From NCBI RefSeq assembly GCF_009811555.1, contig NZ_BLIN01000005.1, forward strand, positions 4,826,976 through 4,890,975: a stretch of 64,000 nucleotides of DNA, read 5' to 3'. This DNA is from Streptomyces caniferus (GTDB lineage Bacteria > Actinomycetota > Actinomycetes > Streptomycetales > Streptomycetaceae). Of this stretch, positions 13,702-35,043 are shown in pieces. Position 1 is the first letter of the stretch. Each line of letters starts with the position of its first letter. The position numbers and the translations under genes are program-made. The notes beneath the pieces were generated by a model, which was given only the letters and a program-made list of their open reading frames with translations, was not told the DNA's origin and ran no database searches.

Positions 13702-13702
13702 T

Positions 13703-13813: not shown

Positions 13814-13827
13814 GGGCGCTCAGAGAC

Positions 13828-17000: not shown

Positions 17001-17026
17001 GGTCGGGACCCTACTCGCAGGCGGTG

Positions 17027-18052: not shown

Positions 18053-18082
18053 GACGTTGTCGCCTGGAACGGGTCTGCTGGT

Positions 18083-18688: not shown

Positions 18689-18726
18689 AGCACTACCCAA
18701 TCCACACTAGGAAGTTGGACCAGCAC

Positions 18727-19209
18727 GTGACTGAATCCGCCACCCCTGAAATTCGCACTTCCGCCAAAGCCGTCGTCCTCCACGACGACCAGATCCTCCT
18801 CATGCGTGCCGTCTGGGAGGACCAGGAGTGCTACTTCCTCCCTGGAGGCGGCCAACACCCCGGAGAGAGTCTCGGCGACGCCGTCGCCCGCGAAGTCGAC
18901 GAGGAAACCGGCCTGACCGTCACCGTCGAGCGGCTGCTGTGGCTCCGTGAATACATCGGCGCCAACCACGACCACCCCGAAAGCGAAGCCAACACCCACC
19001 GCATCGAAGCGATCTTCCTGTGCACCCCCACCAGCGATCCCGGCCAGCTCGGCGGCCATGCCCAGGACGAGGTGCAGACCGGCCTGGAGTGGGTACCGCT
19101 GGGCAAAGTCCCTGCCCTCAACCTGCTGCCACAGGCCATCCGCCAGCCAATCGCCTCCCTCACCGAGACGCCCAAGCCCCTCGACAGCTACCTCGGCGAT
19201 GTCGCCTGA
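18727..19209 (+). CDS. NUDIX hydrolase
   Basis: 160 residues from GTG 18727 (a TTG at 18715 is closer to the AGGA but leaves almost no spacing). The full Nudix box is present at about residues 42-64: G-x5-E-x7-REVDEETGL, the Mg2+/pyrophosphate-binding helix. These enzymes hydrolyse nucleoside diphosphates linked to other moieties; the substrate is not visible. The next gene, a phosphotransferase, starts before this one ends, so they are translationally coupled and likely act on the same small molecule or nucleotide. Sits in the middle of the island. Confidence 0.88.
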   Translation: MTESATPEIRTSAKAVVLHDDQILLMRAVWEDQECYFLPGGGQHPGESLGDAVAREVDEETGLTVTVERLLWLREYIGANHDHPESEANTHRIEAIFLCTPTSDPGQLGGHAQDEVQTGLEWVPLGKVPALNLLPQAIRQPIASLTETPKPLDSYLGDVA

Positions 19210-20002
19210 CAGCGCCATGGACGGCATAGACGGCCGTGTCCCACCCAGCGCCCGCGAGATCACCACCGGCCAGACCAACCGCGTCTGGTCGGTGGAGGGA
19301 CCGACGCCGTACATCCTCAAGCACTACGGTGACCCGAGCCGCGCCGCCAACGAAGCCGCCGCGCTCCGCCTCCTGGCCGGACACCGTGCCCCGGCTCCAC
19401 AGCTGCTCGCCGCGTCCAGCGGTAGCAGCACCCCTCCTTGGACCGCACAGGCCGCACTACACGCGAAGCCTGTGCACCTCGACCGGTTGCTGGCAGACCT
19501 CGCCGAACCACTGGCCGCCATCCACCGCATCCCCGGCACGCACTTCGGCCGCCTCGCCGGCGCTCGACAAAACCACAGCTGGACCGACTACCTCCACGAC
19601 CGCCTGCGCGTGTACGCGGCAGCCGCCCCGGCCCTACCTGCCGTGGCTGGACGCCTCCACCACGAAGTCGACGCCAGCGACAACGCCATCCAGCCAGTGC
19701 TGCTCCATCACGACCTGCAGCCGGGGCACCTTCTTTGCGGACCTGCTGGTTCCCGACTACTCATCGACTGGGAGCTGGCCATCTTCGGCGACCATCGTTC
19801 CGACCTCGCTCGCCTCGCCGTACGCCTCGACCTCGACGACCCCACACCCGTGCTCCCACTTGTCAGTGGGGCCGATGCCACGGCCGAAGGCCGACTCCAT
19901 CTGTACTGGCGCATCCACCTGCTCGCCGACGCCGCACTGAGCACAGACCGCGCCGTACGGGAACGGGCAGCCGGGAGGCTACTTGGTCCGAGCGTCAGGT
20001 AA
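19199..20002 (+). CDS. Aminoglycoside phosphotransferase-fold kinase
   Basis: 267 residues from ATG 19199, overlapping the NUDIX gene by 11 bases (ATG 19217 is an alternative). It has the protein-kinase-like APH fold: early strand TNRVWSVEGPTPYILKHY with the ATP lysine, catalytic loop LLHHDLQPGHLL near residues 177-188, and the Mg-binding LIDWE. In classical APHs the loop is HxDxxxxN; here the Asn position is His, so metal coordination or activity may differ. The family includes antibiotic, choline, homoserine and fructosamine kinases, so a role in resistance is only one possibility. Confidence 0.78.
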   Translation: MSPDSAMDGIDGRVPPSAREITTGQTNRVWSVEGPTPYILKHYGDPSRAANEAAALRLLAGHRAPAPQLLAASSGSSTPPWTAQAALHAKPVHLDRLLADLAEPLAAIHRIPGTHFGRLAGARQNHSWTDYLHDRLRVYAAAAPALPAVAGRLHHEVDASDNAIQPVLLHHDLQPGHLLCGPAGSRLLIDWELAIFGDHRSDLARLAVRLDLDDPTPVLPLVSGADATAEGRLHLYWRIHLLADAALSTDRAVRERAAGRLLGPSVR

Positions 20003-20408
20003 CTGCTGGCGACTGCTGAGCCTCTAGTGCTGCTGGTGAACTCTGGGGCGATGAGCTGCAAGATCCGATCACTGGCGGGCGTCCGGCTACAGGTCGCGGG
20101 GAACGGCTTTGCATCGGGACCAACTCGGGGAGGCGGACACAGTCACAACCCCTGTGGACCTTCGCTAAGAAGTGGGTGGACTCGCGGAAGCGAGTGTGTG
20201 CCTCGCGGCTGTCGTTTGTGAAGGGGGCACTTCCCCCGATCCGTACTGCAGGCCGCATCTCCCATGGCCAAGACGCCGGACCTTAACCTCGTGGCACGCT
20301 CGCTCTGCAACCCCCAGGCTCGCGTCCCGTACAGCGTCTCCCCCTCGCGCTGTCAGTGGCGGGGAATACGGTTTCGGTACGAGCGTTCGATCTGCGGGGG
20401 AGGGCTAC
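20003..20408. other. Intergenic region within the island
   Basis: About 400 bases. No frame has both a ribosome site and recognisable composition. A GGGGGAGGG ribosome site at its right end precedes ATG 20409. Confidence 0.45.
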
Positions 20409-21223
20409 ATGGCGACAGAGCGAAAGTGCCCTGAGTGCAGGGTCAGGGACAGTGCCAATCGGATAGGGAAGCCTGGCATCGGTGTTCGCACTGCTTCGCG
20501 CTGCCCCTGGCCCCATGGCAAGACGCGTTCTTTGAGGCCTACAGGCTCGTGCGTGACCACGACGGGTATGCCCGTCTCGGTGAGCGAGTTGCAGCCCGTT
20601 GCATGGACTGCGGGACGGATCGCAGGATTTCGGTCTCCGAACTCAAAAGCGGCGTTGCTCCTTGCCTCAACTGTGCTGAAGCAACCGATCCGGATGCCGT
20701 ACACATCGTCTACGTGATGCGCTTTCCAGGGCTCAGTGCCCGCAAGGTTGGCATCACCAGCACCGAAGTGCGCCACGACAGGATTGCCTCTCACCTGGCA
20801 CAGGGCGGGATTCTGCTTGATCAGCATGAGGTGCCGAACAGGGAAGCCGCCCGGATGGTGGAAGACTTCGTACTGCGTGCCGTGCGGGACTTTCCGAGCG
20901 GCTGCACAGCCCGGGATTTCCCTCAGGGAGGCTTCACGGAGACGTGGAGTGATGACGGCCCCGACATAGATCTCGGCAACATCATCGGGAAGCTAGCCGC
21001 GAAAGCGGCACCTGGCTTCGATCGGCTGAGGAAGCTCATGGCCTACTTCGAGAGCGAGCCGGCGACCATCGAGGAAATGGTTGAATTCCGGCATATAGAG
21101 ACCATTGAGGTCGATGGGGTCGAGGTGCACCAGCTCGGTTTCAGCGAGCCCTTGGAACAGGTCCTGCGTAAGACCCGAGCCCGCAGGGCAGCGCGAGCTG
21201 CTGAAGCGACCGAAACTGAGTAA
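20409..21223 (+). pseudogene. Zinc-ribbon/GIY-YIG-like nuclease, apparently frameshifted
   Basis: ATG 20409 follows a GGGGAGGG ribosome site and begins MATERKCPECR, one half of a CxxC zinc finger. The matching half (WHRCSHC) and the rest of the protein lie in another frame, open from GTG 20435 to 21223, so a one-base shift near 20440-20460 seems to split the gene. The body has a second finger (CMDCGTD...CLNCAE) and then a GIY-YIG-like core: VHIVYVMRF, KVGIT, an Arg/His strand (RHDRIASH), and a terminal PQGGFTETW as in bacterial GIY-YIG/T5orf172 relatives. A possible DNA-cleaving or mobile-element protein. The C-terminal 80 residues are helical and acidic. It may be a real lesion or a sequencing error. 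Confidence 0.6.
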
Positions 21224-21355
21224 GGGTGCGGTGCCTGCAGGTGCGGCGCAGGCGAGTTCGTCATCGTCGGCGGCTGCGATGGTGTGCTCGATGCGCCACG
21301 GGCACGGAGCTTGGCCGAGATGGGGTGCGGTGGTCTGGACTGCGAGCGCCCAGCC

Positions 21356-23407
21356 TTAGACCGAAGAGTCGTCAAATCTTGTGATCCAAGGCAGGCGAGC
21401 TGGCGCATGCCTCCGCAGGGTCCGATCCGCTGGCACGAACCCGTGGACGAGTTCGAAGGGGGGAGCGGTCTTCAATCGGTGGCAGTCTCCGGCGAGAACT
21501 TGGGCGAAAGCCAGCAACTTGCGACGGGCTGGGCCCTCAAGCAGGTGAGCCGCAGCCTTGGCGCCGTCACTAATCAGCTTCGTGGTGCTGATCAACTCGT
21601 TCTTGGCGGCTGGATCACCGTGTGCGAGGGCAGGCGACAAGCGGTCCCGTTCTCCGACTACGTGGGCGGCGGCCAAGCAGAGAACGGTTGACGCTGCTGC
21701 CTCGGAGGGCTCTCCCGCGTTGGTCATGGCATTTGCCAGCAGAGGGAGAGCGGAGAAGGGGAGGGGATCGACTATCTCCCCGAGGGATTCCTCGACTTGG
21801 AGCCCTGCATCTGCTCCCATGCGGTCCACGCACAGCGGTGGCCGGCCAGAAGAGGTCTGACGTAGTTCCCAGCGCTCGACGCTGGGGTCCGCTACAGCGG
21901 CCCTGAGAATCGCGCGGCATGCCTCTCTCAGTGTCTCAATGGAGACGTCGGGCACGTCCACCTGCACGAGATCACCGTGGCGTCGGATGTCCAGCACCGG
22001 GAATCTGGCTTCTCCAGCTGCCTGGAGTATGGAGAGGTCTCGGCCGACGTAGTTCGAGTCTTCTGCGCCCCAGATGATTAGCGGTGCGTTCTGCGCGTAG
22101 GCCACGGCGACTCCGTGCTCGAACCCGTGGCAGATGGTGCGAGCGCGGACTGCTGCGTCCAGTACCTGCTCCAGATCGGCTGGGTGTCCGCCTAGGAGGA
22201 GCGTGCTGTTGACGGGGTCCCAGCGAAAGTCCTCGTGGGCGTTCGCGTTGCGCCATGCGGGGCGGATCGTCGAAGCCAGGAGCTGGCACAGCGGATGACC
22301 GTCTTCAGCTGCCAGCAGATCCCGTACGGTCGCCAGCGACGCCCCTTGCGGAACCGCCCTGCCCAGCAGTTCCAAGACCACACTGGCCGTGCGCTTGACA
22401 TCACCTTCCAGCACAGCCCGGTACAGGTCCATGGCCGCACGTGCCCTCTCTTCCTGGTGCTCCGCGCGGTTATAGGCATCGCGGTAGGCGATCTGTCCGC
22501 GATGGGAGGACAGCATCTCCGGCTCACGATCGACGTGCCGTGCAATCACCGAACACGTCAGCTCCGGTTCTGACTTCAGATGGAACGCCACCAGATCACG
22601 CGCCAGGAGGGCGGCGCGGTGGGCCACCAAGGGACGGTCGGACAGCGCGAGGACGGCGAGGTGATTGAGCAGTTTCACCGTCAGCGGTAGCGAGTCATCG
22701 ATCAGATGCCTCATGCTCCGGCGCAGCCGACGATCGAGCCTCTTTGGGGCCTTTGCCCAAGCGGCCAGCAAACGGGCCCGTGACGCCACACCCGAGCCGG
22801 AACTCAGGTGCTCGGCCGACACCCCCAGCGATCGCTGATAGACGTCCTCGTCGGGAAGGCTAGCGTGATCAGTACTGGCGGCAGCCTCCAGAGCCCGTCC
22901 AGTTGCTTGAGCCCCGAGAGAATGCCTCCGTACTGCAGACCAAGCGGACTCCGCCCATCCCTCCTCCAGACAGGCGAACAGTGCTTGGGCCTCGCTCCGA
23001 TTCGCTCGCGCTAGGTCAGCCGCCAATCGTCGCTCGGCCGCGTTGGTGCGGGACGGACTGAACCGGGACACTTCATCTGCCACAGTGCCCAAGGCGACAA
23101 CCGACGCGCGGAGACGCCGCAACAATTCTGGAAGCTGCTTCCCGACGGTCCGCCCAGAAGCGGTTCGCAGGCGCAGGATCTCCGCAACCATCTCGTCTGT
23201 CTCCCACTGAAGCCTCGGCAGGTCAGCGTCCCTCAACACTGACTTCCACTGCGCGCGGGTCACCGGTACAAAGGCAACATCCTGTTGTCCCGTGGTCTGC
23301 TCGGGAGGCGCGGAGAGATTCAGTTTTCGGATCACTGCTTGCGCAGCGGCACATGATTCTCGTTCGACCGTGCCCAGTTGGTCGGGAAGGGATACGTCCA
23401 CTAGCAC
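21356..23407 (-). CDS. 683-residue unknown protein with HEPN-like R-x4-H motif
   Basis: Starts at GTG 23407 (no clear ribosome site; GTG 23401 is an alternative). No signal peptide, no membrane segment and no nucleotide-binding loop. Residues 1 to about 370 are mostly helical and Ala/Leu/Arg-rich, repeat-like in character. RNANAH at residues 386-391 (bases 22235-22252) in the context TIRPAWRNANAHEDFRW matches the RN..AH signature of HEPN RNase domains, common in toxins and abortive-infection proteins. Residues about 430-560 look alpha/beta (PLIIWGAEDSNYVG, VQVDVPDVSIETL). Family not recognised. Placement in an integrative island makes a defence or toxin role possible but unproven. Confidence 0.6.
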   Translation of the reverse strand: MLVDVSLPDQLGTVERESCAAAQAVIRKLNLSAPPEQTTGQQDVAFVPVTRAQWKSVLRDADLPRLQWETDEMVAEILRLRTASGRTVGKQLPELLRRLRASVVALGTVADEVSRFSPSRTNAAERRLAADLARANRSEAQALFACLEEGWAESAWSAVRRHSLGAQATGRALEAAASTDHASLPDEDVYQRSLGVSAEHLSSGSGVASRARLLAAWAKAPKRLDRRLRRSMRHLIDDSLPLTVKLLNHLAVLALSDRPLVAHRAALLARDLVAFHLKSEPELTCSVIARHVDREPEMLSSHRGQIAYRDAYNRAEHQEERARAAMDLYRAVLEGDVKRTASVVLELLGRAVPQGASLATVRDLLAAEDGHPLCQLLASTIRPAWRNANAHEDFRWDPVNSTLLLGGHPADLEQVLDAAVRARTICHGFEHGVAVAYAQNAPLIIWGAEDSNYVGRDLSILQAAGEARFPVLDIRRHGDLVQVDVPDVSIETLREACRAILRAAVADPSVERWELRQTSSGRPPLCVDRMGADAGLQVEESLGEIVDPLPFSALPLLANAMTNAGEPSEAAASTVLCLAAAHVVGERDRLSPALAHGDPAAKNELISTTKLISDGAKAAAHLLEGPARRKLLAFAQVLAGDCHRLKTAPPFELVHGFVPADRTLRRHAPARLPWITRFDDSSV

Positions 23408-23527
23408 AGGATGACACCGGCGCGCTGCCTGGCACCGGTTGTTTTCCTCGCGCCCATTGATGCCCGCACAAGTCGACGATGCTGGTACCTGGTACAGGGC
23501 CGCCGGCCGTGCTGGTCAGGTCCACGG

Positions 23528-23551
23528 TCTGCGTGCGCGATGCGTGAGCGG
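23528..23551 (+). repeat. Right inner repeat, candidate integrase arm site
   Basis: Near-identical to 13790-13813 in the same orientation (shared core GCGATGCGTGAGCGG), about 115 bases inside the right attachment repeat. In a circularised element the two would flank attP on either side, the expected geometry for arm-type sites. Confidence 0.5.
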
Positions 23552-23666
23552 ATGGCATGGCACAGGCCACCACGGGATGGATTGCTCATCGAGCCGTACG
23601 TCGCTGATCAGGCGAAATCGAACCGCTGAGCATCGCCCGGCACCACCCGTCACGATCCCGCACCCC

Positions 23667-23711
23667 CTCGTAATGCGTAGGTCTCGGGTTCGAATCCCGA
23701 AGGCGGCTCAG
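23667..23711 (+). repeat. Right attachment repeat (tRNA-Thr 3' half)
   Basis: A perfect 45-bp copy of 13657-13701. It lacks the tRNA 5' half and is not a functional tRNA. Confidence 0.9.
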
Positions 23712-23716
23712 AGATG

Positions 23717-23755
23717 AACCCCAGGTCAGATAGCTGACCTGGGGTTTCTTTTTGG
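23717..23755 (+). terminator. Terminator-like hairpin right of island
   Basis: A 13-bp stem (23717-23729 and 23734-23746, ATAG loop) followed by a T-rich run. Probably the original tRNA-Thr terminator, displaced by island insertion. Confidence 0.75.
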
Positions 23756-23871
23756 TTGTGCTGGGCCTGTGAGGGGAGCTCTTCGGGGCGGTGGCGGATG
23801 TGGCCGCACGGCGGGGCCGGGGCGGGAGTCACGGCGGGGCGGGGCCTGGGTCATGAAGGTGCCCACGGTGA

Positions 23872-24160
23872 TCAGGACAGCGACCGGCGCGGGCCCGACG
23901 GGGTGTCCTCGATGGCGAGGCCGGACTGCTGGAGCTGGTCGCGAATGGTGTCGGCGGTGGCGTAGCCCTTGCGGGTGCGCGCGGTCCAGTGGTCGTCGAG
24001 CGGGTCCAGGTCCAGCACCCCGAGCATCGCGCGCAGCCCGGCGAGGCGGGCCACCGCTGCGTCCCTGTCGTCGGCGGTCGGGGCGGAGTTGCCCTGGCGG
24101 CGGTGGTGTGGGCGATCACCGGCGCCTGCGGGACGCCGAGGTCGTCGTCCAATCGTCACG
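23872..24160 (-). pseudogene. Frameshifted C-terminal remnant of cysteinyl-tRNA synthetase
   Basis: Minus-strand residues match the end of CysS. One frame carries MDDDLGVPQAPVIAHTT; a second continues ADDRDAAVARLAGLRAMLGVLDLDPL and ends ADTIRDQLQQSGLAIEDTPSGPR, the normal CysS terminus. The two pieces lie in different frames, a segment of the anticodon-binding region is shortened, and the catalytic domain (HIGH, KMSKS) is absent. A dead relic between the island's right end and trpF. Confidence 0.75.
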
Positions 24161-24187
24161 CAGGCCTCCTTCCGGGCGTGGGTGTGG

Positions 24188-24799
24188 TCAGTCCGTGGCG
24201 CGGGCCGCCGTGATGAACGAGGTGATCAGGTCGGGGTCCTTGACGCCTCGGCGGCTTTCGATGCCGCTGGAGACGTCGACGCCCCAGGGGCGGGTGGCGC
24301 GTACGGCGTCGCGGACGTTGTGCGGATTCAGGCCGCCGGCCAGCAGCCACTTGCCCTCCGGTGGCGTGAAGTGCTTTCCGGCCCAGTCCCAGGGGACGCC
24401 GGCGCCCGGTACCGCGGCGTCGAGGAGAAGGATCTCCTCTCCCAGTTCGCCGCAGCGCGGGGCCCGGTCGCGGACGGCGGTTCCGCGGATCAGCGTCCAT
24501 CCGTCCGTACCCAGGCTGTCGTAGTAGCTGCGGTCCTCGTTGCCGTGGAGCTGCACCGCACGGACCCCGGCACCGGCCGCCAGGGCGCGTACGTCGTCGA
24601 GCGGCTGGTTCCGGAAGACTCCGACCGTCAGCACTCCCGGCGGTACGCGCCGTGCCAGGTTCCGTGCGGTGGTGGCGTCCACCTGGCGGGGGCTGTCCGA
24701 GAAGACGAAGCCGATGGCGTCGGCGCCTTCCCGGACCGCGGTGTCGACGTCCTGCTCGGTCCGCAGGCCGCACACCTTGATGAACAGTGGGGTATCCAT
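24188..24799 (-). CDS. trpF: Phosphoribosylanthranilate isomerase
   Basis: 203 residues, close to family length. Converts N-(5-phosphoribosyl)-anthranilate to its 1-carboxyphenylamino-deoxyribulose phosphate. The (beta/alpha)8 signatures are present: FIKVCGLRTEQD with the catalytic Cys, GFVFSDSPRQV, VGVFRNQ, VQLHGNED, catalytic Asp in LLLDAAVPGAG, LAGGLNPHN, and GVDVSSGIESRRGVKD for phosphate binding. Most Streptomyces lack trpF because PriA does this step as well as the histidine one, so a dedicated copy points to specialised metabolism. It is the last gene of the minus-strand cluster, 79 bases after the exporter gene. Confidence 0.93.
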   Translation of the reverse strand: MDTPLFIKVCGLRTEQDVDTAVREGADAIGFVFSDSPRQVDATTARNLARRVPPGVLTVGVFRNQPLDDVRALAAGAGVRAVQLHGNEDRSYYDSLGTDGWTLIRGTAVRDRAPRCGELGEEILLLDAAVPGAGVPWDWAGKHFTPPEGKWLLAGGLNPHNVRDAVRATRPWGVDVSSGIESRRGVKDPDLITSFITAARATD

Positions 24800-24839
24800 G
24801 CGTGCTTCCTGTCGTGAGCGCTTCGGCTCCTGGGCTATT

Positions 24840-24877
24840 CGGTTCGCTGGTTCTTCGGTTCGCCGGTTGTTCGGTTC
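24840..24877. repeat. Short degenerate tandem repeat between trpF and lysE-type gene
   Basis: Two and a half 16-bp units of the type CGGTTCGCTGGTTCTT, with two mismatches between units, in the 79-bp gap. No function evident. Confidence 0.5.
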
Positions 24878-24878
24878 G

Positions 24879-25493
24879 TCAGCGGCTGGCGAAGGCCAGT
24901 TGGATGCCGATTCCGACGAAGGCCGCGGCGAAGGTGCGGCGCATCCAGGCCATCACCTTCGGGCGCGAGATGACGTGGTCGCGGACGGCGGCGGCGAAGC
25001 CTCCGTAGATCGCGAAGACGACGAACGTCATGAGCATGAACACGCCGCTGAGTTCCAGCATGTGGGGGACGGAGTTCGCCTCGTCGGCGGGGACGAACTG
25101 GGGGAGGAAGGCCAGGAAGAAGATCGAGAGCTTGGGGTTCAGGAAGTTGATGAGGATCGCCGTGCCGGTGACCCGGAGCGAGGACCGCTCCCCTTCCTCC
25201 TGGTCCTCCACCTTCAACGTGCCCTGCTCGCGCAGGGTGTTCCAGGCCATGTAGAGCAGGTAGGCCACGCCCAGGTACTTGAAGGTCTCGAAGACCACCG
25301 CGCTGGTGTGCAGGATCGCCGCGAGACCGGCGATGGCCGCCGCCAGGTGGGGAACGATCCCGAGGGTGCAGCCGAAGGCGGCCACGACACTCTTGCGGAA
25401 GCCCCGGGATAAGCCGGTGGCGATCGTGTACAGGGCTCCGGTCCCGGGCGAGACGACGATGACGAATGAGGTGATCAGGAATTCAATGCTCAT
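24879..25493 (-). CDS. LysE/RhtB-family amino-acid exporter
   Basis: 204 residues with five to six hydrophobic helices and the family N-terminus (FLITSFVIVVSPGTGALYTIATGLSRGFRKS) plus INFLNPKLSIFFLAFLPQF mid-protein. The family exports amino acids and their analogues. Within the trp-type cluster it most plausibly exports the cluster's product or a toxic intermediate. It lies 126 bases downstream of trpC and 79 upstream of trpF in the same direction. Confidence 0.9.
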   Translation of the reverse strand: MSIEFLITSFVIVVSPGTGALYTIATGLSRGFRKSVVAAFGCTLGIVPHLAAAIAGLAAILHTSAVVFETFKYLGVAYLLYMAWNTLREQGTLKVEDQEEGERSSLRVTGTAILINFLNPKLSIFFLAFLPQFVPADEANSVPHMLELSGVFMLMTFVVFAIYGGFAAAVRDHVISRPKVMAWMRRTFAAAFVGIGIQLAFASR

Positions 25494-25619
25494 GGAACTC
25501 GCTCCTTGCTCGGTACGACGCCGCCCGGCAACGTCCTGCGAGGGACGGATTCTCGACGGGCGGCGCAGGGGCGCTCTCGTGGCGGGCTCGGGCCCGCTGG
25601 GTGGGAGAAACGCTACTGG

Positions 25620-26411
25620 TTACCGGGCCAGTAAGTCGCGAGTTGCGGCTTCGAGGTCGGCGGAACGCATCAGGCTCTCGCCGATGAGGAACGTGTGCAC
25701 ACCGGCCTTGGCCAGGCGGCCGAGATCGGCCGGGGTGCTGAGGCCGCTCTCGCCGACGACGACCCGGTCGCCGGGGACCTTCGGCGCCAGGGCCTCCGCC
25801 GTGCTCAGAGTGGTCTCCAGGGTCTTGAGATTGCGGTTGTTGATCCCGATCAGGCGCGAGCGCAGGGAGGCCGCCCGCTTCAGCTCCTGCTCGTCGTGGA
25901 CCTCGACGAGCACGTCCATGCCCAGCTCGAAGGCCGTGTCCTCAAGGGCCCCGGCCGTCTCGTCATCGACCGCCGACAGCAGGAGCAGGATGCAGTCGGC
26001 GCCCCAGGCGCGGGCCTCGACGACCTGATAGGGGTCGTACATGAAGTCCTTGCGCAGCACCGGCAGGGCGGTCGCCTCGCGGGCGGCGGCGAGGTGACTT
26101 CTCGCCCCTCCGAAGGAGGGGGTGTCGGTGAGGACCGAGAGGCATGCCGCGCCGCCGGCCTGGTAGGCGCGGGCCAGGGCGGGCGGGTCGAAGTCGGGGC
26201 GGATGAGGCCCTTCGACGGACTCTTCTTCTTGATCTCGGCGATCAGCGCATAGGAGTTCTCGGCGTGGCGCCGCTCGAGGGCGGCCAGGAAACCGCGCGG
26301 CGGGGGAGCGGCGTCGGCCTCGCGCCGCAGCGTCGAGAGCGGTACCGCCTTCTTCGCGGCGGCGATCTCGTCGAATTTGTAGGCGGCGATCCTGGTCAGA
26401 AGGTCGGTCAT
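25620..26411 (-). CDS. trpC: Indole-3-glycerol phosphate synthase
   Basis: 263 residues from ATG 26411. Closes the indole ring by decarboxylative cyclisation. Motifs: [13 protein letters not shown] (catalytic Lys), [62 protein letters not shown] and GESLMRS for phosphate binding. All key residues appear intact, so it should be active. One base separates it from the trpD stop, so the two are strongly coupled. It is probably a second copy in addition to the housekeeping trpC elsewhere; that copy is not in this window. Confidence 0.95.
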
Positions 26412-26412
26412 G

Positions 26413-27435
26413 TCATTCTCCTGTCGCGCTCGATGCGGTGGCGAGCCGGTCGAGGCAGTCCCTGGCCCGGCCGGAATCGAGGGATTCCTCCGCCAGTTCC
26501 ACTCCGGCGGCGAGATCGGTGGCCCGGTTCGCGGCGACGAGGGCGGCCGCGGCATTGAAGACCGACACGTCCCGGTAGCGGCTCCTGTCCCCGTCGAGCA
26601 CCGCGATCAGCGCCTTGGCGTTGCTCGTCGCGTCGCTGCCGCGGAGATCCTCCGGGCGGCTCGGTGACAGACCGACATCATGGGGCGATATCTGGAAGGT
26701 CCGTACGGTGCCGTCGCGCAGTTCGGAGACGGTGGACGGCCCCGTGGTGGTGATCTCGTCGAGGCCGTCCGAGCCGTGGACCACCCAGGCGCGCGTCGAC
26801 CCCAGTTCGCCGAGGACCTCGGCCATCGGTTCGGTCCACCGGCGGGAGAACACTCCGACGAGGTGGTGCCGTACGCCGGCCGGGTTCAGCAGCGGGCCCA
26901 GCAGATTGAAGATGGTGCGGGTGGCCAGTTCGACGCGTGTGGCGGCCACATGCTGAAGGGCCGGGTGGTGTGCCGGGGCGAACATGAACCCGATCCCGGC
27001 GTGCCGGATACACCGCTCGACCCCTTCGGGCGTCAGCCCCGTACGGACGCCGAGGGCGTCCAGGACGTCCGACGAACCGGAGCGTGAGGACAGGGCCCGG
27101 TTGCCCTGCTTGGCCACGGGGACACCGGCGCCGGCCACGATGAACGCCGCGCAGGTGGAGATGTTGTAGGAGCCCGATCCGTCACCGCCCGTACCGAGCA
27201 CGTCGACCGTGCCCTCGGGCGCGGTCACCCGGCGCATCTGGGTCCGCAGCGTGCCGGCCGCGCCGGCCAGCTCGTCCACCGTCTCCCCGCGCACCCGGAG
27301 CGCCATGAGCAGGGCGCCCATCTGCGAGGGCGTCGCCTCGCCCGACATCATCTTGCCGAAGACATGGGCGGACTCCGCACGGGTCAGCGTGCTGCCCGCA
27401 GCGGCCTTGCCCAGCAGTGTTCTGAACCGTTCCAT
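26413..27435 (-). CDS. trpD: Anthranilate phosphoribosyltransferase
   Basis: 340 residues from ATG 27435 (GTG 27438, one codon upstream, is also possible; GGAGG precedes both). Transfers phosphoribosyl from PRPP to anthranilate. Motifs: [17 protein letters not shown] (PRPP loop), [57 protein letters not shown]. All are canonical, so anthranilate is the likely substrate. The start overlaps the stop of the upstream flavoprotein gene and the stop is one base from trpC. No anthranilate synthase gene lies nearby. Confidence 0.95.
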
Positions 27436-29543
27436 CACGCCTCCGACCGGATGACGGCATCGCTGCCGGGCGGCATGGCCTGGTCCCAGTCGAGTTCCAC
27501 GTTCTCCCGGCGGAAGGGCGTCCAGTCGGTGAGGCCGGTGTCCAGGGTGCGCGCGAACTCATGACCGCTGTGGACCGCGGCCGCGATGATGCCCGGGCCG
27601 AGGCAGTCGCCGACCCGGACGACCCGGCGGACACCTGCCGCGGCGAGGGCCTGCCGATCCCCGCTCTGCAGCTCCTGGTACAGCGTGTCGCGCGGCACCA
27701 TGCTGGTGGCCAGCACGACGGCGTCGGCCGGCACCGCGGTCTCGCGGCCGGTGTAGACACAGGCCAGATGGGCGGCCCCCGCCTCGGTACGGGCGAGGGA
27801 GGTCAACGGCCGTACGGACGCGCACAGTTCCAGCATGCGGCGCGCTATCCGGCGCTGCTCGGCCGTCTGCTGGGTGAAGGCGGCGACCATGCTCTCGGGC
27901 GTGACGAAGGTGACCTCACAGCCGTGCCGCACCAGGTGTTCGGCGATCACGTTGGCCATGTAGTAGTGGTCGTCGTCGAAGAGCACCACCCGGCCGGACG
28001 GAAGGCGGCCGTCCATGATGTCGTCCGGGGTGAAGACCGGGAGCCGGTCGAGCCCCGGGACGGCGCCGGTGTGGTGGCGTCCTACTCCGTCCCGCCGCCA
28101 CACCGCGCCGGTGGCGACGGCGACGAGCGAGCAGCCGGCCTCGTGCACGAGGCCGGGGGTGACCTCGTTGGCGGGCAGCAGCTGCACGGTGCGCATCGCG
28201 CGCAGTTGCTGCAGCCGCCAGTCCCTGACCCGGGCGTAGGTGGCCAGGCCCGGCAGGCGGCTCTCCCGGGTGACGCGGCCGCCCAGCTCGCGGTTGCTGT
28301 CGGCGAGGATCACGCTGTATCCGCGCTGGCCGAGTGCGCGGGCCGCCTCCAGGCCGGCCGGTCCGGCGCCCGCGATGAGGACGGTGTCGTCGGTGGTGCG
28401 CCGCTCGATGCGCTCGGGGTGCCAGCCGCGGCGCCATTCTTCGCCGGTGGTCGGGTTCTGGGTGCAGCGGAAGGGGGCCCCGGCTCTGTCCCAGGCCACA
28501 CAGACGTTGCAGCCGATGCATTCACGGATGTCGTCGAAGCGTCCTTCCTCGATCTTGCGGGGGAGGAAGGGGTCGGCGATGGAGGGACGTGCGGCGCCGA
28601 TGAGGTCGAGGGTGCCGCTGCGGATCATCGAGACCATGGTGTCCGGCGAGGTGAATCTCCCGACCCCGACGACCGGCTTGGTGGTCACGCTCTTCACGAA
28701 CTTGATGTACTGCTCTTGATAGCCCTCGTCACTGAAACGGGCCGTGGCGCCGTCGTTGTCGAAGTTGCTGACGTTGACGTCCCACAGGTCGGGCAGTTCC
28801 GCGAGCATCTCGACGACGTCGTGTCCCTCGCCGTCGGCGGTGATACCGCGCTCGCCCATCATCTCGTCCACGCTGAAGCGGACCGCGACCGCGCAGGTGT
28901 CGCCGACGGCTTCCTTGGCGTCCTCGATCAGCTCGCGCAGCAGCCTCGCGCGGTTCTCCAGGCTGCCGCCGTACTCGTCGGTCCGCTGGTTGCGGCGCCG
29001 GGAGAGGAAGTTGATGGGGAGCGTCATGTCGTGCCCGGCGTAGATGTAGACGATGTCGAAGCCGGCGCGCCGGGCGTTGACCGCGGCCGTACGGTGCCAG
29101 CGGCGGAAGGCCCGGATGTCGTTCTTGTCCATGGCGCGCGCCGTGCCGGGGAAGATGCCCCGGGTGGCCTCCACGCTCGCGGCTATCGGGACGGCGCGGG
29201 ATTCGAGGTTGCTGACGTGCGCGCCGTTGTGCGCCAGCTCGACGCCGGCCAGGGCACCGTGCTCGTGTATCAGGTCGGTCGCGCGGGCGAGGTAGGGGAT
29301 GTCCTTGGCGTCCCACAGGCGGAGTTCGCGCTGATGGTTGCCGGAGTAGTGGATGTCGCACTGTTCGGTGCAGACCACCCCCCAGCCGCCTTCGGCCTTG
29401 ACGCTGCGCATCGCGGCCATGGAGCTGGGGTACGCCCGCCCCATGCCATTGCAGTGGGGCACCTGGTAGAAGCGGTTCTTCGCGGTGACCGGGCCTATGC
29501 GGACGGGCTGGAAGAGGACGTCGAAGCGTGCAGGGCGTGGCAT
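27435..29543 (-). CDS. Trimethylamine dehydrogenase-like FMN/4Fe-4S oxidoreductase
   Basis: 702 residues. N-terminal old-yellow-enzyme barrel (about 1-370), a 4Fe-4S site CxxCxxCx11C ([11 protein letters not shown]...RC) near residue 345, then two nucleotide-binding domains ([18 protein letters not shown] near 390). It is closest to trimethylamine/dimethylamine dehydrogenase rather than dienoyl-CoA reductase: QVPHCNGMG keeps the cysteine (Cys31) that carries 6-S-cysteinyl-FMN, and [30 protein letters not shown] and [12 protein letters not shown] match. Likely oxidises a C-N bond (N-demethylation or amine oxidation) of a cluster intermediate. Overlaps trpD; 15 bases follow yggS. Confidence 0.88.
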
Positions 29544-29558
29544 GGGGATCCTTCGGCG

Positions 29559-30278
29559 TTATGGATGCGTCGGCTGGGCGGCCGGGTAGGCGCGTGCGCC
29601 GAAGATCGCGCTGCCCACCCGCACATGCGTGGCTCCGTGCTCGATGGCGGTCGCGTAGTCGCCGCTCATTCCCATGGACAAGAGGTCCAGGCCGTTGCGG
29701 GCGGCCATCTTCGCCAGCGTGGAGAAGTGCGGTTCCGGTGGCTCGCCCGCCGGCGGGATGCACATCAGCCCTCTGACGTCGAGGCCGTGCACGCCCCGGC
29801 AGGTGTCGACGAACGCGTCCGCCTCGTCGGGCAGGACGCCCGCCTTCTGCGGTTCGGCACCCGTGTTGACCTGGATGAACAGCCGGGGGTGACGGTCCTG
29901 TGCGGCGCACTGCCGGGCCAGGGCCCGGCACAGCGACGGACGGTCGACGGAGTGGATGACGTCGAACAACGCCACCGCGTCACGGGCCTTGTTGGACTGC
30001 AGCGGACCGATGAGGTGCAGTTCGAGGCCCGGGAACCGCTCCTGAAGACCGGGCCACTTCTCCTGGGCCTCCTGGACCCGGTTCTCGCCGTAGACCCGCA
30101 GGCCGGCATCGATGGCCGGCACCAGGGCTTCGGCGGGAACGGTCTTGGAGGCCGCGACGAGGGTCACGGACTCCGGCGGGCGCCCCGCTCGCGCGCAGGC
30201 GGCCGCGATCGTGCCGCGCACCTGCTCCAGGCCGCTGACCCGGCCGGGAGAGGGCGGTATCGGATGTGTGCTGCTCAC
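29559..30278 (-). CDS. YggS-type PLP homeostasis protein
   Basis: 239 residues. A single fold-type III barrel of the YggS/PROSC family, which binds pyridoxal phosphate and balances vitamin B6 and amino-acid pools without known catalysis. PLP lysine in LVAASKTVPAE, then YGENRVQEAQEKW, HLIGPLQSNKA, HSVDRPSL, IQVNTGAEPQKAG, GLMCIPP and SMGMSGDYATAIEHGATHVRVG, all typical. Normal Streptomyces have a yggS in the division cluster, so this is probably an extra copy dedicated to the pathway. 25 bases follow the B3/4 gene. Confidence 0.92.
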   Translation of the reverse strand: MSSTHPIPPSPGRVSGLEQVRGTIAAACARAGRPPESVTLVAASKTVPAEALVPAIDAGLRVYGENRVQEAQEKWPGLQERFPGLELHLIGPLQSNKARDAVALFDVIHSVDRPSLCRALARQCAAQDRHPRLFIQVNTGAEPQKAGVLPDEADAFVDTCRGVHGLDVRGLMCIPPAGEPPEPHFSTLAKMAARNGLDLLSMGMSGDYATAIEHGATHVRVGSAIFGARAYPAAQPTHP

Positions 30279-30303
30279 GTTGGCCCGTCCTCGGGGGAGT
30301 AGT

Positions 30304-30996
30304 TCAGAATTCCAGCCGTCGCTGCGAAGGGCTGATCACCGTCGAGCAGGTGACGCGGACGCCGAGGCCCGCCAGGCCCAGGTCCAGCTCCGACCGGAGG
30401 GCGGCGAGGTCCTGCTCGGCCGAGGCGTGGTGGGCCTCGATCACCATCAGCACCCGGTCGGTCCCGGCCGACACCACGGACCGGGCGCTCTGCCGGTACG
30501 TCCAGCGCCGGGCGTGGGCATTGCCCTCCGGGTCGGCGAAGACGACCTCGCCCGCGGACGGGTGCTCGGTCTCGCCCTGGAAGGTCTGGTAGGTCTCCGA
30601 ACCGTCGGCCGGCCGGACGGTGATGCCCTCGGTGATGTGCGCGCAGTCGAACGCGGCGATCGGAATGCCGAAGGACATCGAGACGAAGTTCAGGTAGTCG
30701 ACCAGGGGGTGGAACTTCGGCATGTCCTTGGTCTTGCGGTAGCGCCGCAGCAGGGCCTCGGACGCGCACCGGTACTGGGTGGGCTTGAGCCCCATCCTCG
30801 AAAAGGCCTCACGCCATGCGGCGATCTCCGGCATCTCGGCCTCGCCGGCCGCGGCCTGGCGCTCTTCGATCTTCTTGGCCAGTTCGTCGAGGCGATCGCT
30901 GTCGTTCTTGGCCGCCCGGACCTCGTCCGCGACGAGAACCAGGGCCCGCAGGTCCGGGTGGGTGGTCCAGATGGCGTCGGCGTGCGTGAAGTACAT
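30304..30996 (-). CDS. Free-standing B3/4 (tRNA-synthetase editing-type) domain protein
   Basis: 230 residues making up a complete B3/B4 domain as found in the beta subunit of phenylalanyl-tRNA synthetase, where it hydrolyses mischarged tRNA. Recognisable blocks: MGLKPTQYRCASEALLRR, LVDYLNFVSMSFGIPIAAFD, ITVRPADGSETYQTFQGE, GEVVFADPEGNAHARRWTYRQS. Stand-alone copies are widespread and mostly uncharacterised. Within a cluster with an amino-acid exporter, it could protect the producer by clearing tRNAs charged with the product. That role is inference. Confidence 0.85.
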   Translation of the reverse strand: MYFTHADAIWTTHPDLRALVLVADEVRAAKNDSDRLDELAKKIEERQAAAGEAEMPEIAAWREAFSRMGLKPTQYRCASEALLRRYRKTKDMPKFHPLVDYLNFVSMSFGIPIAAFDCAHITEGITVRPADGSETYQTFQGETEHPSAGEVVFADPEGNAHARRWTYRQSARSVVSAGTDRVLMVIEAHHASAEQDLAALRSELDLGLAGLGVRVTCSTVISPSQRRLEF

Positions 30997-31032
30997 GGTG
31001 CTGTCCCAGGGGGTGTGGTGAGCGGTGGGTGG

Positions 31033-31674
31033 TTACGGGTAGAGGTGGCCCTGATCCCAGGGGCCCTCGGGCTTCTCCCTGCTGAAAACGAGCCGTTCAT
31101 GCAGGCGAAACGGCCGGTCCGACCAGAACTCGAGGTAGACGGGGCGGATGCGGTAGCCGGTCCAGTGAGGGGGCCGGGGCACCTCTGCGCCCTCGAACCG
31201 GGCGGTCTCGCGCCGCACCGCTCCGTCGAGTTCGGCGCGGCCGGAGAGGTGCTGCGACTGCAGGCTCGCCCAGGCGCCGATGCGACTGTCCCGCGCCCGG
31301 GAGGCGAAGTACGCGTCGGCCTCCGCGTCCGTGACGCAGTCGACCGAGCCGCGGAATCTCACCTGCCGGCGCAGGCTCTTCCAGTGGAGCACCGCGGAGG
31401 CCTGCATATTGGCGGCGAGTTCGGCGCCCTTGGCGGAGCGGCTGTTGGTGAAGAAGACGAAGCCTTCCGGGGTGTGGTCCTTGAGCAGCACCATGCGGAC
31501 GTCGGGTAACCCGTTCGCGTCCGCGGTCGCCAGTGCCATGGCGTTGGGGTCGTTGACCTCACTGGCGCCGGCCTCTTCGAGCCACTTGTGGAACAGATCG
31601 AACGGGACGGTCTCGGGGGCCTGCGGTGGTGCGGCTTCCGCCGGATGACCGGTCTCGGGGAACTGCGCGGACAT
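31033..31674 (-). CDS. pdxH: Pyridoxamine 5'-phosphate oxidase
   Basis: 213 residues from ATG 31674 (AAGGAG ribosome site); an upstream in-frame extension to 31839 is rejected. An FMN enzyme making PLP from PNP or PMP. Motifs: [87 protein letters not shown]...HLYP at the end. The C-terminal signature matches true PdxH. Together with the YggS protein it forms a PLP-handling pair within the cluster. A related flavin oxidase activity on another amine cannot be excluded. Confidence 0.9.
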
Positions 31675-31796
31675 CGATTTCTCCTTGGGCGACAGCGCGC
31701 GGCGAAGCAGCGGTGGGGTGCGCGGCGGGGCGGAGTCGAGAGGACGCGACGTCACGCCGGGCGTTCTGCTCACGCCGCGTGCCGTCGCCGGGGGAC

Positions 31797-33035
31797 CTAC
31801 TGCTTGAGCGGCGTCTTCTCGGTGAGGAGGTGGCGCCACTTGTCGAGTTCGTTCCCGGGCGAGGTGACCAGGTTCATGGTCCCGTCGGCGGCGATCAGCA
31901 CCTCGGCGGCCGGCGGGACGTTCAGGAACTCCATGTGCTGGGTGGCGCAGTAGGCGCCGACGTCGAGGATCACCAGGTGGCAGCCCGCGGCGATGCCCTC
32001 GGGCACCTGGACGTCACCGGGAAGGATGTAGTCGTTGCGCAGGATGGTGCGCCCGCGCACGGCGGCGCTCGTGGTCACCGCGCTGGTGACTTCCTCCATC
32101 GCGGAGTCGAGGAAGGCCACATGGTGATTGCGGTCCCGGAGCTGGGCCGACGGCATGAGCATCCGGCAGCCGTTGGTGACCAGGATGCTGGAGACGGGCG
32201 TGGTGATGACGCTGCGCTCGATGTCCAGCAGCAGCGCTCCGGTGTCGGCCAGCACATCGCGGGCCGGCTCGAAGAGGAACGTCACGTCCTCGGGGATCTC
32301 CATGCGGGTGGCGGCCTGCTGGATCCGCTGGAAGTACTGATGCCAGTCGAAGTGCTTCTCCGCCTCGGACCATGCGTCGTAGTCGAAGCCGTGGCCGCCG
32401 GCGAAGTTGATCGACCGGGCGGTGGGGAAGTGCTCGAGGTAGATGCTGAAGACCTGCTCGACGATGCCGACCATGTCCTCGAGGGAGTTGCCGCTGCCGC
32501 AGTACACCTCCAGGCCTTCGAGGTCGCGGTCGTACTCCTTGAGGAGGGCCGCGAGCTGCCCCAGCTCCCCGTACTTGATGCCCGGCTTGCCGGAGTCGAG
32601 GCTGTCGATCCGGACGCTGATCGTCGGGGCGTTGGTGCGCAGCGAGTACGCGACCTCGTCGAGGCTCGCCAGGAACGTCGGGTGTCCCGTCTCGTCCCAG
32701 AAGGCGATCTCCTGGTCGGAGACGTGCCCCGGGGAGACGATGAACTTCTCGAACCCGAACTCGCGCAGGATCCGGTACTCGCTCGGCAGCTGCACGAGGA
32801 TGCCCACGCCGTCGACGTCCTTCAGCGGTTCCAGGACATGCGGATTCGAGTTGGGGAAAAACGGTATGTAGAGTTCCACTCTTTCACCGAGTCCGGCTGC
32901 CTCAGCGGCCTCCCTGACCCGGCCGAGGTTCTTCCGGAACTGCGCTTCGCTGTAGACGAAGACCGGAGTTCCCGCCTGTTCGGCGAGACGCTTCAGGTCG
33001 ACATTCTTGAACCATGAATGAGTTAACGCGGTCAT
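31797..33035 (-). CDS. LysA-like fold-III decarboxylase homologue lacking the PLP lysine
   Basis: 412 residues from ATG 33035. The whole fold of group IV decarboxylases is present: N-terminal [14 protein letters not shown], barrel strands, [15 protein letters not shown] where LysA has the HIGSQ loop, [12 protein letters not shown], and [14 protein letters not shown] near the end. But the lysine that bonds PLP (normally YAxKAN) is replaced: [12 protein letters not shown]. The LysA cysteine motif CESGD is also absent (TILRNDYIL). It may be a pseudo-enzyme, bind PLP non-covalently, or have a new chemistry. The fourth codon is TTA (33024-33026), which suggests bldA-dependent translation. First gene of the nine-gene cluster. 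Confidence 0.82.
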
Positions 33036-33550
33036 GACTAACCCCCACAGGTGACCGAAGAAGGAAGCGCACACACCTGGGAGTACGGGGGTCGCCTGTG
33101 GGGCGGCGTTCCACCGAGGACTCCCCCGTGCGCACAAAGAAGCCAGCCATGCGATGAATTGACGAGGGCCGGCGGTGCTGGCCAAAGGAATACCAGCGGC
33201 GCTCCGAGAATCGCAAGAGGAAGGCGATCGTTGTGGCCGGATGTCGGCTACCCGAACACATCACCGCAGGTGGCCAGGGGTGATGTGGCTGGACCTCCCC
33301 CTACCCGGATTCTTGGGAACGGCCGGCTTCGCCCACTCATCGCCCAGCATCCGGACGGGTATTGACGGAACGGATCGAGCGCTCGCTAGTATTGCGGCAG
33401 TATTTCAGCGGTGCAGCGGGGGAGCCCACAAGGCGGAGTCCGACGCTCCGGAACTGTGCAGCGTCTTCAACGATCTGCGCTTCTTCGCCCTGTGCTTCGT
33501 CGCCCTGTGCTTCGTCGTCCTGTGCTTCTCTGTTCTGCGTTGCCTGTTGT
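33036..33550. other. Promoter region of the trp-type cluster and spacer before tRNA-Cys
   Basis: About 515 bases. The left end must hold the minus-strand promoter of the nine-gene cluster. On the plus strand TTGACG (33362-33367) and TAGTAT (33387-33392), spaced 19, resemble a promoter towards tRNA-Cys. A 15-bp tandem repeat occupies 33481-33540. No gene seen. Confidence 0.5.
33481..33540 (+). repeat. 15-bp tandem repeat, four units
   Basis: Units at 33481, 33496, 33511 and 33526, of the form TTCGTCGCCCTGTGC; the first three differ by one or two bases and the fourth is degenerate. No spacer sequences, so not a CRISPR. Lies immediately upstream of tRNA-Cys. Confidence 0.8.
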
Positions 33551-33622
33551 GGCCGTGTGCCCGAGTGGTTGAGGGGATCGCCTGCAAAGCGGTTTACATC
33601 GGTTCGAATCCGGTCGCGGCCT
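33551..33622 (+). tRNA. tRNA-Cys (anticodon GCA)
   Basis: A 72-nt cloverleaf: acceptor GGCCGTG/CGCGGCC (one G-U), D stem CCC/GGG, anticodon stem ATCGC/GCGGT with loop CTGCAAA (GCA), variable TTAC, T arm ATCGG-TTCGAAT-CCGGT, discriminator T. CCA not encoded. All arms pair, so it should be functional. Confidence 0.93.
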
Positions 33623-33642
33623 CGAAGAGTTCATGAGGCGTT

Positions 33643-33683
33643 CTTGCGTATCCTCCGCAATGTCATCGCGGAGGATACGCAAG
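33643..33683 (+). terminator. Hairpin after tRNA-Cys
   Basis: A perfect 16-bp inverted repeat (33643-33658 and 33668-33683, CTTGCGTATCCTCCGC arms, 9-nt loop), 20 bases past the tRNA. No T run follows, so its terminator status is tentative. Confidence 0.6.
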
Positions 33684-33813
33684 GGCGTTGGATAAAGAGT
33701 GTGGCGTGTGGTGACGCAGGTAATTCCGCTGCTTTCGCCATGCGCAACACGTCGTCCCGGTCCGCATACGCACACGCCGTCTCGGCCCGCCTCGTCGCGT
33801 CACCGCCCCGGCC

Positions 33814-35043
33814 TCACAAGGGCCGGGGAGCGCTCGATCCGTTCCCGGGCGCCAGGTCCACGATCGCCAGGGCGCCTCCGTCGGGAGGGTTTTCGTAGGT
33901 CACCTTGGCGTGCAGTACCCGGGCCTGGCCGGTGACGATGGTGAGGCCCAGGCCGATGCCGGCGCCGCGTTCGCGGGCGCCGGTGCGGAAGCGCTGGGGG
34001 CCGTGGGTGAGGAGTTCGGCGGGGAAGCCGGGGCCGTGGTCGCGGACGTGGATGGCCGCTCCGTCGACTTCCAGGGTGACGGGTGGGGCGCCGTGCACCC
34101 GGGCGTTGGTGATCAGGTTGGCCAGGATGCGCTCGACGCGGCGGGGGTCGGTCGTCACGGACGCTTCGCGGTGCACCGTCACCTCGACGTCCCCGCCCGC
34201 CAGCGTGACCGCCCGGTGCGCCAGGGCGCCCGTACGGATCTCCTCGTGTTGTGCCTGCTCGACGCCCGGCACATCGAGCCGGGCCACCTCCAGGACGTTC
34301 TCCACCAGGCTGCGCAGGGTGTCCACGCCCCCGCTGACCAGTTCGGCCGGGCGGCCGGGCGGCAGCAGTCCCACAGCGGTCACCAGGCCGGCCACCGGAG
34401 TGCGGAGCTCATGGGCGATATCGGCGGTGACCTGCCGTTCGGCCTCCAGCCGGGCGCTCAGGGCGTCGGCCATGGTGTTGACGGCGGCGCCGAGCCGGGC
34501 GATCTCGTCCTTGCCCCGGGGGCGGACCCGGTCCGTCAGATCGCCGTCCGCGATCCGCTGCGCGGTGTCCGCGGACGCGGTGATCCGCCGCCCCGCGCCG
34601 GCCGCCGCCGCGACGCCCAGCACACAGCCGAGCGCGGTGACGGACGCGCCGGAGCCCAGCAGCACCCGGTCGAGATCGGCCAGGGCACGGACCTGCGGGG
34701 CATAGGAGCGCCGGACGGCGACGATGTCGCGGCCGCTGCGGGTGGCGGCCCACAGCACCGGGGCACCGGAACCGCCGGTGCTCTGGAGGCAGGTGGCGCG
34801 CACGGGACGGTCGGTGACGGTCCTGCGGAGCGCGGCGGGCAGGTCCGGCGGATTGACCAGGGCGCCGCTGTCGATTCCGGAGGCGTAGGCGCCGACCGCC
34901 TCGACGAGCCGGGCGTCGACGACATGCGCCGCGCTCCGCCGCTGGTCCGCACTCGTGAGCTGGTGCACCAGCAGTCCGATGAGGGTGGCCACGATCGCCG
35001 CCGTACCGGCGATGACCAGAGCGGTCTTGGTACGCAGTCCCAT
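33814..35043 (-). CDS. Two-component sensor histidine kinase
   Basis: 409 residues from ATG 35043. Two transmembrane helices (about 7-29 and 134-152) enclose a short extracytoplasmic sensor of about 105 residues, followed by HAMP, HisKA with ADIAHELRTPVAGL (His near 214), and a HATPase domain with NLITNARVHG, DHGPGFP and GIGLGLTIV. Phosphorylates the OmpR-type regulator whose gene ends five bases upstream. The preceding two genes encode exported proteins, so the signal may be envelope-related, as in CseBC-like systems. Confidence 0.9.
   Translation of the reverse strand: MGLRTKTALVIAGTAAIVATLIGLLVHQLTSADQRRSAAHVVDARLVEAVGAYASGIDSGALVNPPDLPAALRRTVTDRPVRATCLQSTGGSGAPVLWAATRSGRDIVAVRRSYAPQVRALADLDRVLLGSGASVTALGCVLGVAAAAGAGRRITASADTAQRIADGDLTDRVRPRGKDEIARLGAAVNTMADALSARLEAERQVTADIAHELRTPVAGLVTAVGLLPPGRPAELVSGGVDTLRSLVENVLEVARLDVPGVEQAQHEEIRTGALAHRAVTLAGGDVEVTVHREASVTTDPRRVERILANLITNARVHGAPPVTLEVDGAAIHVRDHGPGFPAELLTHGPQRFRTGARERGAGIGLGLTIVTGQARVLHAKVTYENPPDGGALAIVDLAPGNGSSAPRPL

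Follow-up and report, generated by a model that had tools for sequence, protein, structure and literature searches.

In the ascamycin cluster, an extra alanyl-tRNA synthetase (AlaRS), AcmD, makes Ala-tRNA for the AlaRS-like AcmF (available part of PMC12945691). CtdA, a standalone B3/4 protein, is a canavanyl-tRNA deacylase that clears tRNA-Arg of canavanine and has a protective role in the cell, and its gene is located before a canavanine-utilisation operon (available part of PMC10018355). Both systems bear on a 64,000-nucleotide stretch of Streptomyces caniferus DNA (assembly GCF_009811555.1, contig NZ_BLIN01000005.1, positions 4,826,976 to 4,890,975), hereafter the window, whose minus strand carries at 24188-33035 nine genes encoding a LysA-like protein, PdxH, a B3/4 protein, YggS, a trimethylamine dehydrogenase (TMADH)-like flavoprotein, TrpD, TrpC, a LysE-family exporter and TrpF. 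This cluster may, with a probability that we put at roughly 0.4, direct a Cys-tRNA-linked synthesis of an exported amino-acid-like metabolite, for which cysteine would be one source and the ring would come from TrpD-TrpF-TrpC. The initial annotation had listed the nine genes in the right order, all being found there as open reading frames. Its interpretation, which included pyridoxal 5'-phosphate (PLP) chemistry, was incomplete, as it overlooked a tRNA-Cys gene, a remnant of a cysteinyl-tRNA synthetase (CysRS) gene, the kinship of the B3/4 protein with CtdA and an adjacent 10-kb element. Because of the tRNA, the CysRS and the kinship with an aminoacyl-tRNA deacylase, the reading shifts from indole/PLP metabolism to cysteinyl-tRNA.

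The gene set is not peculiar to S. caniferus. Scanning named genomes for the LysA-like gene yielded 23 loci, of which 17 are of the window's own class (class 1), five of a second class (class 2) and one is L020. The arrangement is more than chance, since the 17 class-1 loci contain this cluster, either whole or as the part remaining on a truncated contig. Together with L095, L096, L097 and the window, class 1 amounts to 21 loci, 16 of them in Streptomycetaceae (the window, L008-L019 and L095-L097, in Streptomyces and another streptomycete genus) and the others in Kineosporia (L025), Roseibium (L028), Aureimonas (L021, truncated where its contig ends) and two proteobacterial metagenome-assembled genomes (L022, L024). 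Gene content was compared in 19 of these loci, leaving aside L021 and L013 (the latter has all nine genes). Seven core genes (encoding the LysA-like protein, PdxH, B3/4, YggS, TMADH-like protein, TrpD and TrpC) are present in 19/19, which defines a gene set rather than a rate, since the loci were chosen as cluster carriers. An exporter gene is equally constant (lysE in 17 loci, and a gene for an EamA-like exporter, judged from its translation, in the two metagenome-assembled genomes), and trpF is found in 14. Pairwise identities of the core genes and lysE correlate across the 19 loci (r 0.77-0.94, against 0.46-0.91 for trpF), as expected of joint inheritance, although ordinary descent of the whole cluster would give the same result. 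The LysA-like gene is rare, with 2/199 genomes of the genus and 7/394 of the family (the window's own included), 2/399 in the order around G554 and 1/385 in the class around G552 (centres included). The cluster is patchily distributed and is probably moving horizontally. Two proteins of the cluster type, LysA-like P0101 and B3/4 P0191, carry the name of Ralstonia solanacearum, where the cluster may also occur (proteins only), and in L020 (Amycolatopsis anabasis) a LysA-like gene of the class-1 lineage lies near a distant TrpC (38%), the other core genes being absent from the sequence examined.

A tRNA-Cys gene is linked to 11 of the 21 class-1 loci, the window included, in both Actinomycetota and Alphaproteobacteria and at differing positions. 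In the window it is divergent from the operon, 515 bases from the start codon of the LysA-like gene, and encodes no CCA (ARAGORN), and it is likewise divergent, about 330-540 bases away, in L008, L009, L010, L012, L013, L095, L096 and L097. In the two alphaproteobacterial loci it lies 3' of pdxH and has the same orientation (L021 at 2623, the pdxH match ending at 2609; L028 at 12113, the match ending at 11975). These tRNAs are intact, with 220/220 helix cells paired across the 11 sequences and 14/20 pairs changed on both sides, a result reached by 0/500 shuffles, which is support and not a probability because the sequences are related. Every Streptomycetaceae genome tested has a housekeeping tRNA-Cys as well, from which the linked genes differ. 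The streptomycete genes belong to a second tRNA-Cys lineage (GGCCGTGTGCCCGAGTGG...), most members of which encode no CCA; its pattern was matched in 173/295 Streptomyces genomes beside the ordinary tRNA-Cys, and the host genome of the window (G000, 9.15 Mb) and G158 each contain two members, of which one lies outside the cluster (G000: C5:3330481; L099, L114). An Rfam scan of 23000-35000 returned the tRNA plus one match far under its family threshold, and no known RNA regulator.

The second component of this linkage is cysS. Tblastn with the host's CysRS revealed two complete copies of cysS, one immediately after trpF (L096) and one immediately after lysE (L095). In L008, L009 and L013 a copy begins after trpF, but the contigs end inside it and include only its first 27-63 codons. 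Contigs would be expected to end in this way if assemblies broke at near-identical cysS copies, and clusters in other drafts may be cut too. A second cysS therefore accompanies the cluster in five relatives (after trpF in four, after lysE in one), each with a linked tRNA-Cys, and the linked tRNA is present in all six loci that have cysS or, as in the window, a remnant of it. Both genomes with a complete linked gene, G158 (L095) and G484 (L096), also carry another full-score CysRS and a weaker member of the family, which we take to be probably MshC. The linked cysS of G484 shares 99.4% DNA identity over 1406 bases with the other cysS of the genome (84.4% in G158); in G484 it thus adds to the dose of an ordinary CysRS, in keeping with a role in supply. 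Four signature motifs that were looked for, whose roles we assume, are kept in both complete copies (the sequence of L009 and L013 covers the first motif only; that of L008 and the window covers none). Together with the near-identity in G484, this leaves a resistant CysRS unsupported. Next to the remnant in the window, and ending just beside the cluster, lies a 10-kb stretch (13652-23711) flanked by direct repeats of a tRNA-Thr 3' end (13652-13701 and 23662-23711; 50 nt, 96% identical), with an intact tRNA-Thr at 13625-13699; this stretch is probably an integrated element.

The third component is the B3/4 protein, whose closest solved relatives are the B3/4 protein 9mkl (E 1.2e-19) and CtdA (9f7e, E 1.9e-19), followed by the beta subunit of PheRS. 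Judging from its kinship with CtdA, likewise a standalone B3/4 protein, it most likely acts on an aminoacyl-tRNA, tRNA-Cys and CysRS, where linked, hinting at the tRNA concerned. It differs from CtdA in being tied to tRNA-Cys and CysRS rather than to arginine or guanidine genes, none of which was found among the nine proteins by NCBIfam and Pfam profile searches; on this ground we reject a link to canavanine. B3/4 proteins are widespread (6079 matches among 8000 candidates; the closest other one, 90% identical, is named S. angustmyceticus), and a B3/4 protein alone is therefore no mark of this pathway.

As for the LysA-like protein, a fold test identified the diaminopimelate decarboxylase fold, so that the name given by the initial annotation holds for the fold but extends neither to the curated score (67.6 bits for an NCBIfam cut-off, TIGR01048, of 297.9) nor to Pfam (no match). 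What sets it apart from diaminopimelate decarboxylase is that its Phe60 aligns with the PLP (Schiff-base) lysine of 2yxx, a replacement seen in 20/20 aligned homologues; the motif PFFPN(S/A)N occurs in 119 of the 120 homologues listed, of 236 found. The lost lysine and the low score rule out an ordinary LysA, and the PLP chemistry that had been proposed for the locus is not to be assumed for this protein. One homologue, P0023 (671 aa), is fused with PdxH domains, a hint that the LysA-like protein and PdxH act together.

The trp genes of the cluster are extra copies, since TrpA (C5:2319195), the adjoining TrpB (translation judged by eye), another TrpC (C5:2321809) and another TrpD (C5:2445410) are located elsewhere in G000. 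These separate copies, and the recurrence of the unit, rule out housekeeping trp genes with unrelated neighbours. Another TrpA-like gene (L007, C1:6433-7131) lies near the start of contig C1, apart from the trp genes. The reported absence of TrpA and TrpB could be extended to the whole window and to the 17 class-1 relatives searched (E 1e-3), and that of anthranilate synthase stands for the nine proteins, to which the search for TrpE and TrpG was confined. The single PRAI-family match in G000 is the cluster TrpF, and the only PRAI match of G558 (L012) and G559 (L015) is also inside the cluster (3/3 Streptomyces genomes tested), whereas G552-G556, where the cluster sequence examined has no trpF, have one PRAI match each elsewhere (5/5). 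In Streptomyces, the TrpF step is normally done by PriA. This distribution suggests that a TrpF activity is required and that, in hosts with no TrpF of their own, the cluster usually brings one; L095, whose cluster has no trpF, would be an exception. Conserved Lys/Glu signatures, whose functional roles we likewise assume, are present in the alignment of the window TrpC. The KHGN histidine of TrpD, presumably an anthranilate contact, is replaced by Gln or Met in 9/13 Streptomyces cluster copies (including that of the window). It is kept in the other four, as it is in L022, L024, L025, L028 and the second TrpD of G000. The cluster shares with the housekeeping tryptophan branch a run of three successive enzyme families whose signatures are conserved, and departs from it in that these are paralogues, that TrpE, TrpG, TrpA and TrpB are missing from the cluster and that there are ties to B3/4, tRNA-Cys and an exporter.

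The remaining assignments (Table 1) largely bear out those first made, with NCBIfam scores upholding TrpD, TrpC, PdxH and YggS, and Pfam gathering scores upholding B3_4, LysE and PRAI. The window PdxH does not reach the PhzG model (167 bits, cut-off 270), and TrpF reaches no NCBIfam subfamily cut-off (best 157 vs 215 bits). The TMADH-like protein matches histamine dehydrogenase (3k30, E 9.7e-215) and TMADH (1djn, E 1.3e-162), and its alignment retains Cys31, which we take to be the flavinylation (cysteinyl-flavin) residue, in 8/8 sequences, and Cys342/345/348/360, presumably the Fe-S ligands, in 7/8, L025 lacking one. Enzymes of this kind oxidise amines. The genes had also been described as partly overlapping, which is true of the TMADH-like gene and trpD (1-4 bases shared, 27435-27438 with the listed GTG start) but not of trpD and trpC, one base apart, or of the other pairs, which are separated by gaps.

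Table 1. Features of the cluster and its surroundings in the window
Feature	Coordinates	Strand	Basis
LysA-like protein	31797..33035	-	diaminopimelate-decarboxylase fold, Phe60 at PLP-lysine position
PdxH, pyridoxamine 5'-phosphate oxidase family	31033..31677	-	TIGR00558 242 bits, cut-off 180
Standalone B3/4 protein, 230 aa	30304..30996	-	PF03483 85 bits, cut-off 29; CtdA relative
YggS-family PLP-binding protein	29559..30278	-	TIGR00044 170 bits, cut-off 106
TMADH/histamine dehydrogenase-like flavoprotein	27435..29543	-	matches to 3k30, 1djn; alignment
TrpD paralogue, anthranilate phosphoribosyltransferase	26413..27438	-	TIGR01245 383 bits, cut-off 199; alignment
TrpC paralogue, indole-3-glycerol phosphate synthase	25620..26411	-	NF001370 426 bits, cut-off 348; alignment
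LysE-family exporter	24879..25493	-	PF01810 129 bits, above Pfam gathering score
TrpF, phosphoribosylanthranilate isomerase	24188..24799	-	PF00697 (PRAI) 142.8 bits, cut-off 22.7
CysRS C-terminal remnant	23875..24152	-	tblastn E 6.5e-30 to host's CysRS
tRNA-Cys(GCA)	33551..33623	+	ARAGORN; Rfam tRNA 55.4 bits

The LysA-like family also occurs in a second context, the class-2 loci (L023, L026, L027, L029, L030, L031 and L032), two of which are plasmid-borne, in Lotus-associated Mesorhizobium and Aminobacter. These loci carry PurH and PurC (6/7), a beta-RFAP synthase-like gene (6/7) and, in some, an FGGY kinase and other genes, a set that resembles the formycin and pyrazofurin C-nucleoside clusters with their ForT and PurC/PurH homologues and looks like an undescribed cluster of the C-nucleoside type. 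Class 1 differs from formycin and pyrazofurin in that no beta-RFAP synthase-like protein, PurC or PurH was found in the 17 relatives searched or among the nine window proteins, one weak xanthine-dehydrogenase match turning up in L017. Since class 2 has these genes, both contexts of the LysA-like family may join an aromatic amine to phosphoribosyl pyrophosphate (PRPP). A LysA/PdxH/YggS module common to both classes is only weakly indicated, L030 being the one class-2 locus in seven with both pdxH and yggS.

How these parts might work together can be sketched, in one conceivable order and direction, from the chemistry of the families. In such a pathway (i) the LysA-like, PdxH, YggS and TMADH-like proteins would prepare or oxidise a precursor, (ii) TrpD, TrpF and TrpC would couple an aromatic amine of the anthranilate type with PRPP and close a second ring, giving a ring that carries a glycerol-phosphate (or analogous) arm, (iii) the extra CysRS and tRNA-Cys would provide Cys-tRNA(Cys), that is, activated cysteine, (iv) the B3/4 protein would use it, either for aminoacyl transfer to the ring-bearing acceptor or for release of the finished amino acid (by analogy with AcmD/AcmF), and (v) LysE or the EamA-like protein would export the product. 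The nearest precedent for such a supply of Cys-tRNA would be ascamycin, where an extra canonical aminoacyl-tRNA synthetase and a relative of a synthetase domain also share one cluster. The window-type cluster differs by cysteine instead of alanine, an editing-domain relative instead of a synthetase-like protein, a linked tRNA gene and other chemistry, and by the fact that the window's own cysS is merely a remnant. The LanB-like ligase domain of PEARL, which uses Cys-tRNA, is absent from the nine proteins, the search having covered neither a scaffold peptide nor the wider neighbourhood. It is also conceivable, if doubtful, that tRNA-Cys is a covalent carrier, with cysteine, loaded onto the linked tRNA by a CysRS of which some carriers have an extra copy beside the cluster, being altered, or joined to the TrpD-TrpC heterobicycle, by enzymes including the lysine-less LysA-fold protein, before B3/4 releases or transfers it as a free amino acid for export.

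Several observations weigh against a synthesis that depends on Cys-tRNA. Examination of the sequence found no linked tRNA-Cys in 10/21 class-1 loci (L011, L014-L019, L022, L024 and L025) and, by tblastn, no linked cysS in 15/21, so that neither is essential to the cluster, and the cysS of the window itself is broken, with only the C-terminal remnant left. The tRNA is not of a cluster-specific lineage, which is ruled out by the many Streptomyces genomes that match it. No known aminoacyl-tRNA-using transferase is among the cluster proteins, and the characterised relatives of B3/4 considered here hydrolyse (available part of PMC10018355). The main rival is self-protection, which we regard as possible but somewhat less likely: the product would be an amino-acid antimetabolite that disturbs the charging of tRNA-Cys, B3/4 would strip the mischarged tRNA, the extra CysRS and tRNA-Cys would keep Cys-tRNA abundant, and LysE or EamA would export the product. 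CtdA does guard against a toxic amino acid (available part of PMC10018355), an exporter is present in 19/19 loci compared, and B3/4, tRNA-Cys and cysS occur in loci of the TrpD/TrpC class and were found in none of the class-2 loci that were searched, for which a nucleoside product is expected. The ascamycin precedent serves supply and protection alike, as AcmD is both a supplier and more resistant than an ordinary AlaRS (available part of PMC12945691). However, the linked cysS of G484, being near-identical to the other one, is hardly a resistant form and adds only dose, an extra tRNA gene would be an odd resistance device, and a product resembling indole or tryptophan would be expected to endanger TrpRS and tRNA-Trp rather than CysRS, which is very selective.

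Both explanations give the tRNA a role, which would be accidental if the cluster simply boosted indole-3-glycerol phosphate for a tryptophan-derived metabolite, with tRNA-Cys and cysS as chance neighbours left, for example, by mobile elements that target tRNAs. The family signatures retained in TrpD, TrpC and TrpF, the repeat-flanked element that adjoins the cluster and the commonness of the tRNA-Cys lineage in Streptomyces are consistent with this. It is nonetheless improbable, since anthranilate synthase, TrpA and TrpB are missing from the nine proteins (and TrpA and TrpB from the window and the 17 relatives), the adjacency to tRNA-Cys recurs in two phyla at different positions with cysS accompanying it, and the repeat-flanked insertion sits at tRNA-Thr, not tRNA-Cys. 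Detoxification or catabolism of an environmental amino-acid analogue appears more improbable still. It would recall the canavanine-utilisation operon that CtdA precedes (available part of PMC10018355), and would agree with the amine oxidation expected of the TMADH-like enzyme and with the AraC-like regulators (judged by eye) beside lysE in L021 and L028; yet TrpD and TrpC consume PRPP and construct a ring, the transporter that is kept is an exporter and not an importer, and no known amino-acid lyase is among the nine proteins.

As a set, the cluster is undescribed, although each of its parts has relatives. The initial suspicion that no such cluster had been reported agrees with the open-licence full text of PubMed Central, where no match was found (most subscription papers and all preprint servers were outside the search), and we know of no described pathway with this gene set. 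Its compactness (about 10 kb) and its presence in several Streptomyces make it a natural candidate for heterologous expression. If the proposed Cys-tRNA-linked synthesis is true, this would be, to our knowledge, the first pathway with its own linked tRNA gene and an editing-domain protein, and in some carriers also the charging enzyme, this tRNA part being combined with enzymes of the tryptophan branch and with a LysA-fold protein that lacks the catalytic lysine. Cysteinyl-tRNA would then be used to build a secreted amino acid, which is new as far as we know. Equally new, as far as we know, would be what self-protection implies, that is, a natural product aimed at tRNA cysteinylation, with a standalone editing factor as its antidote.

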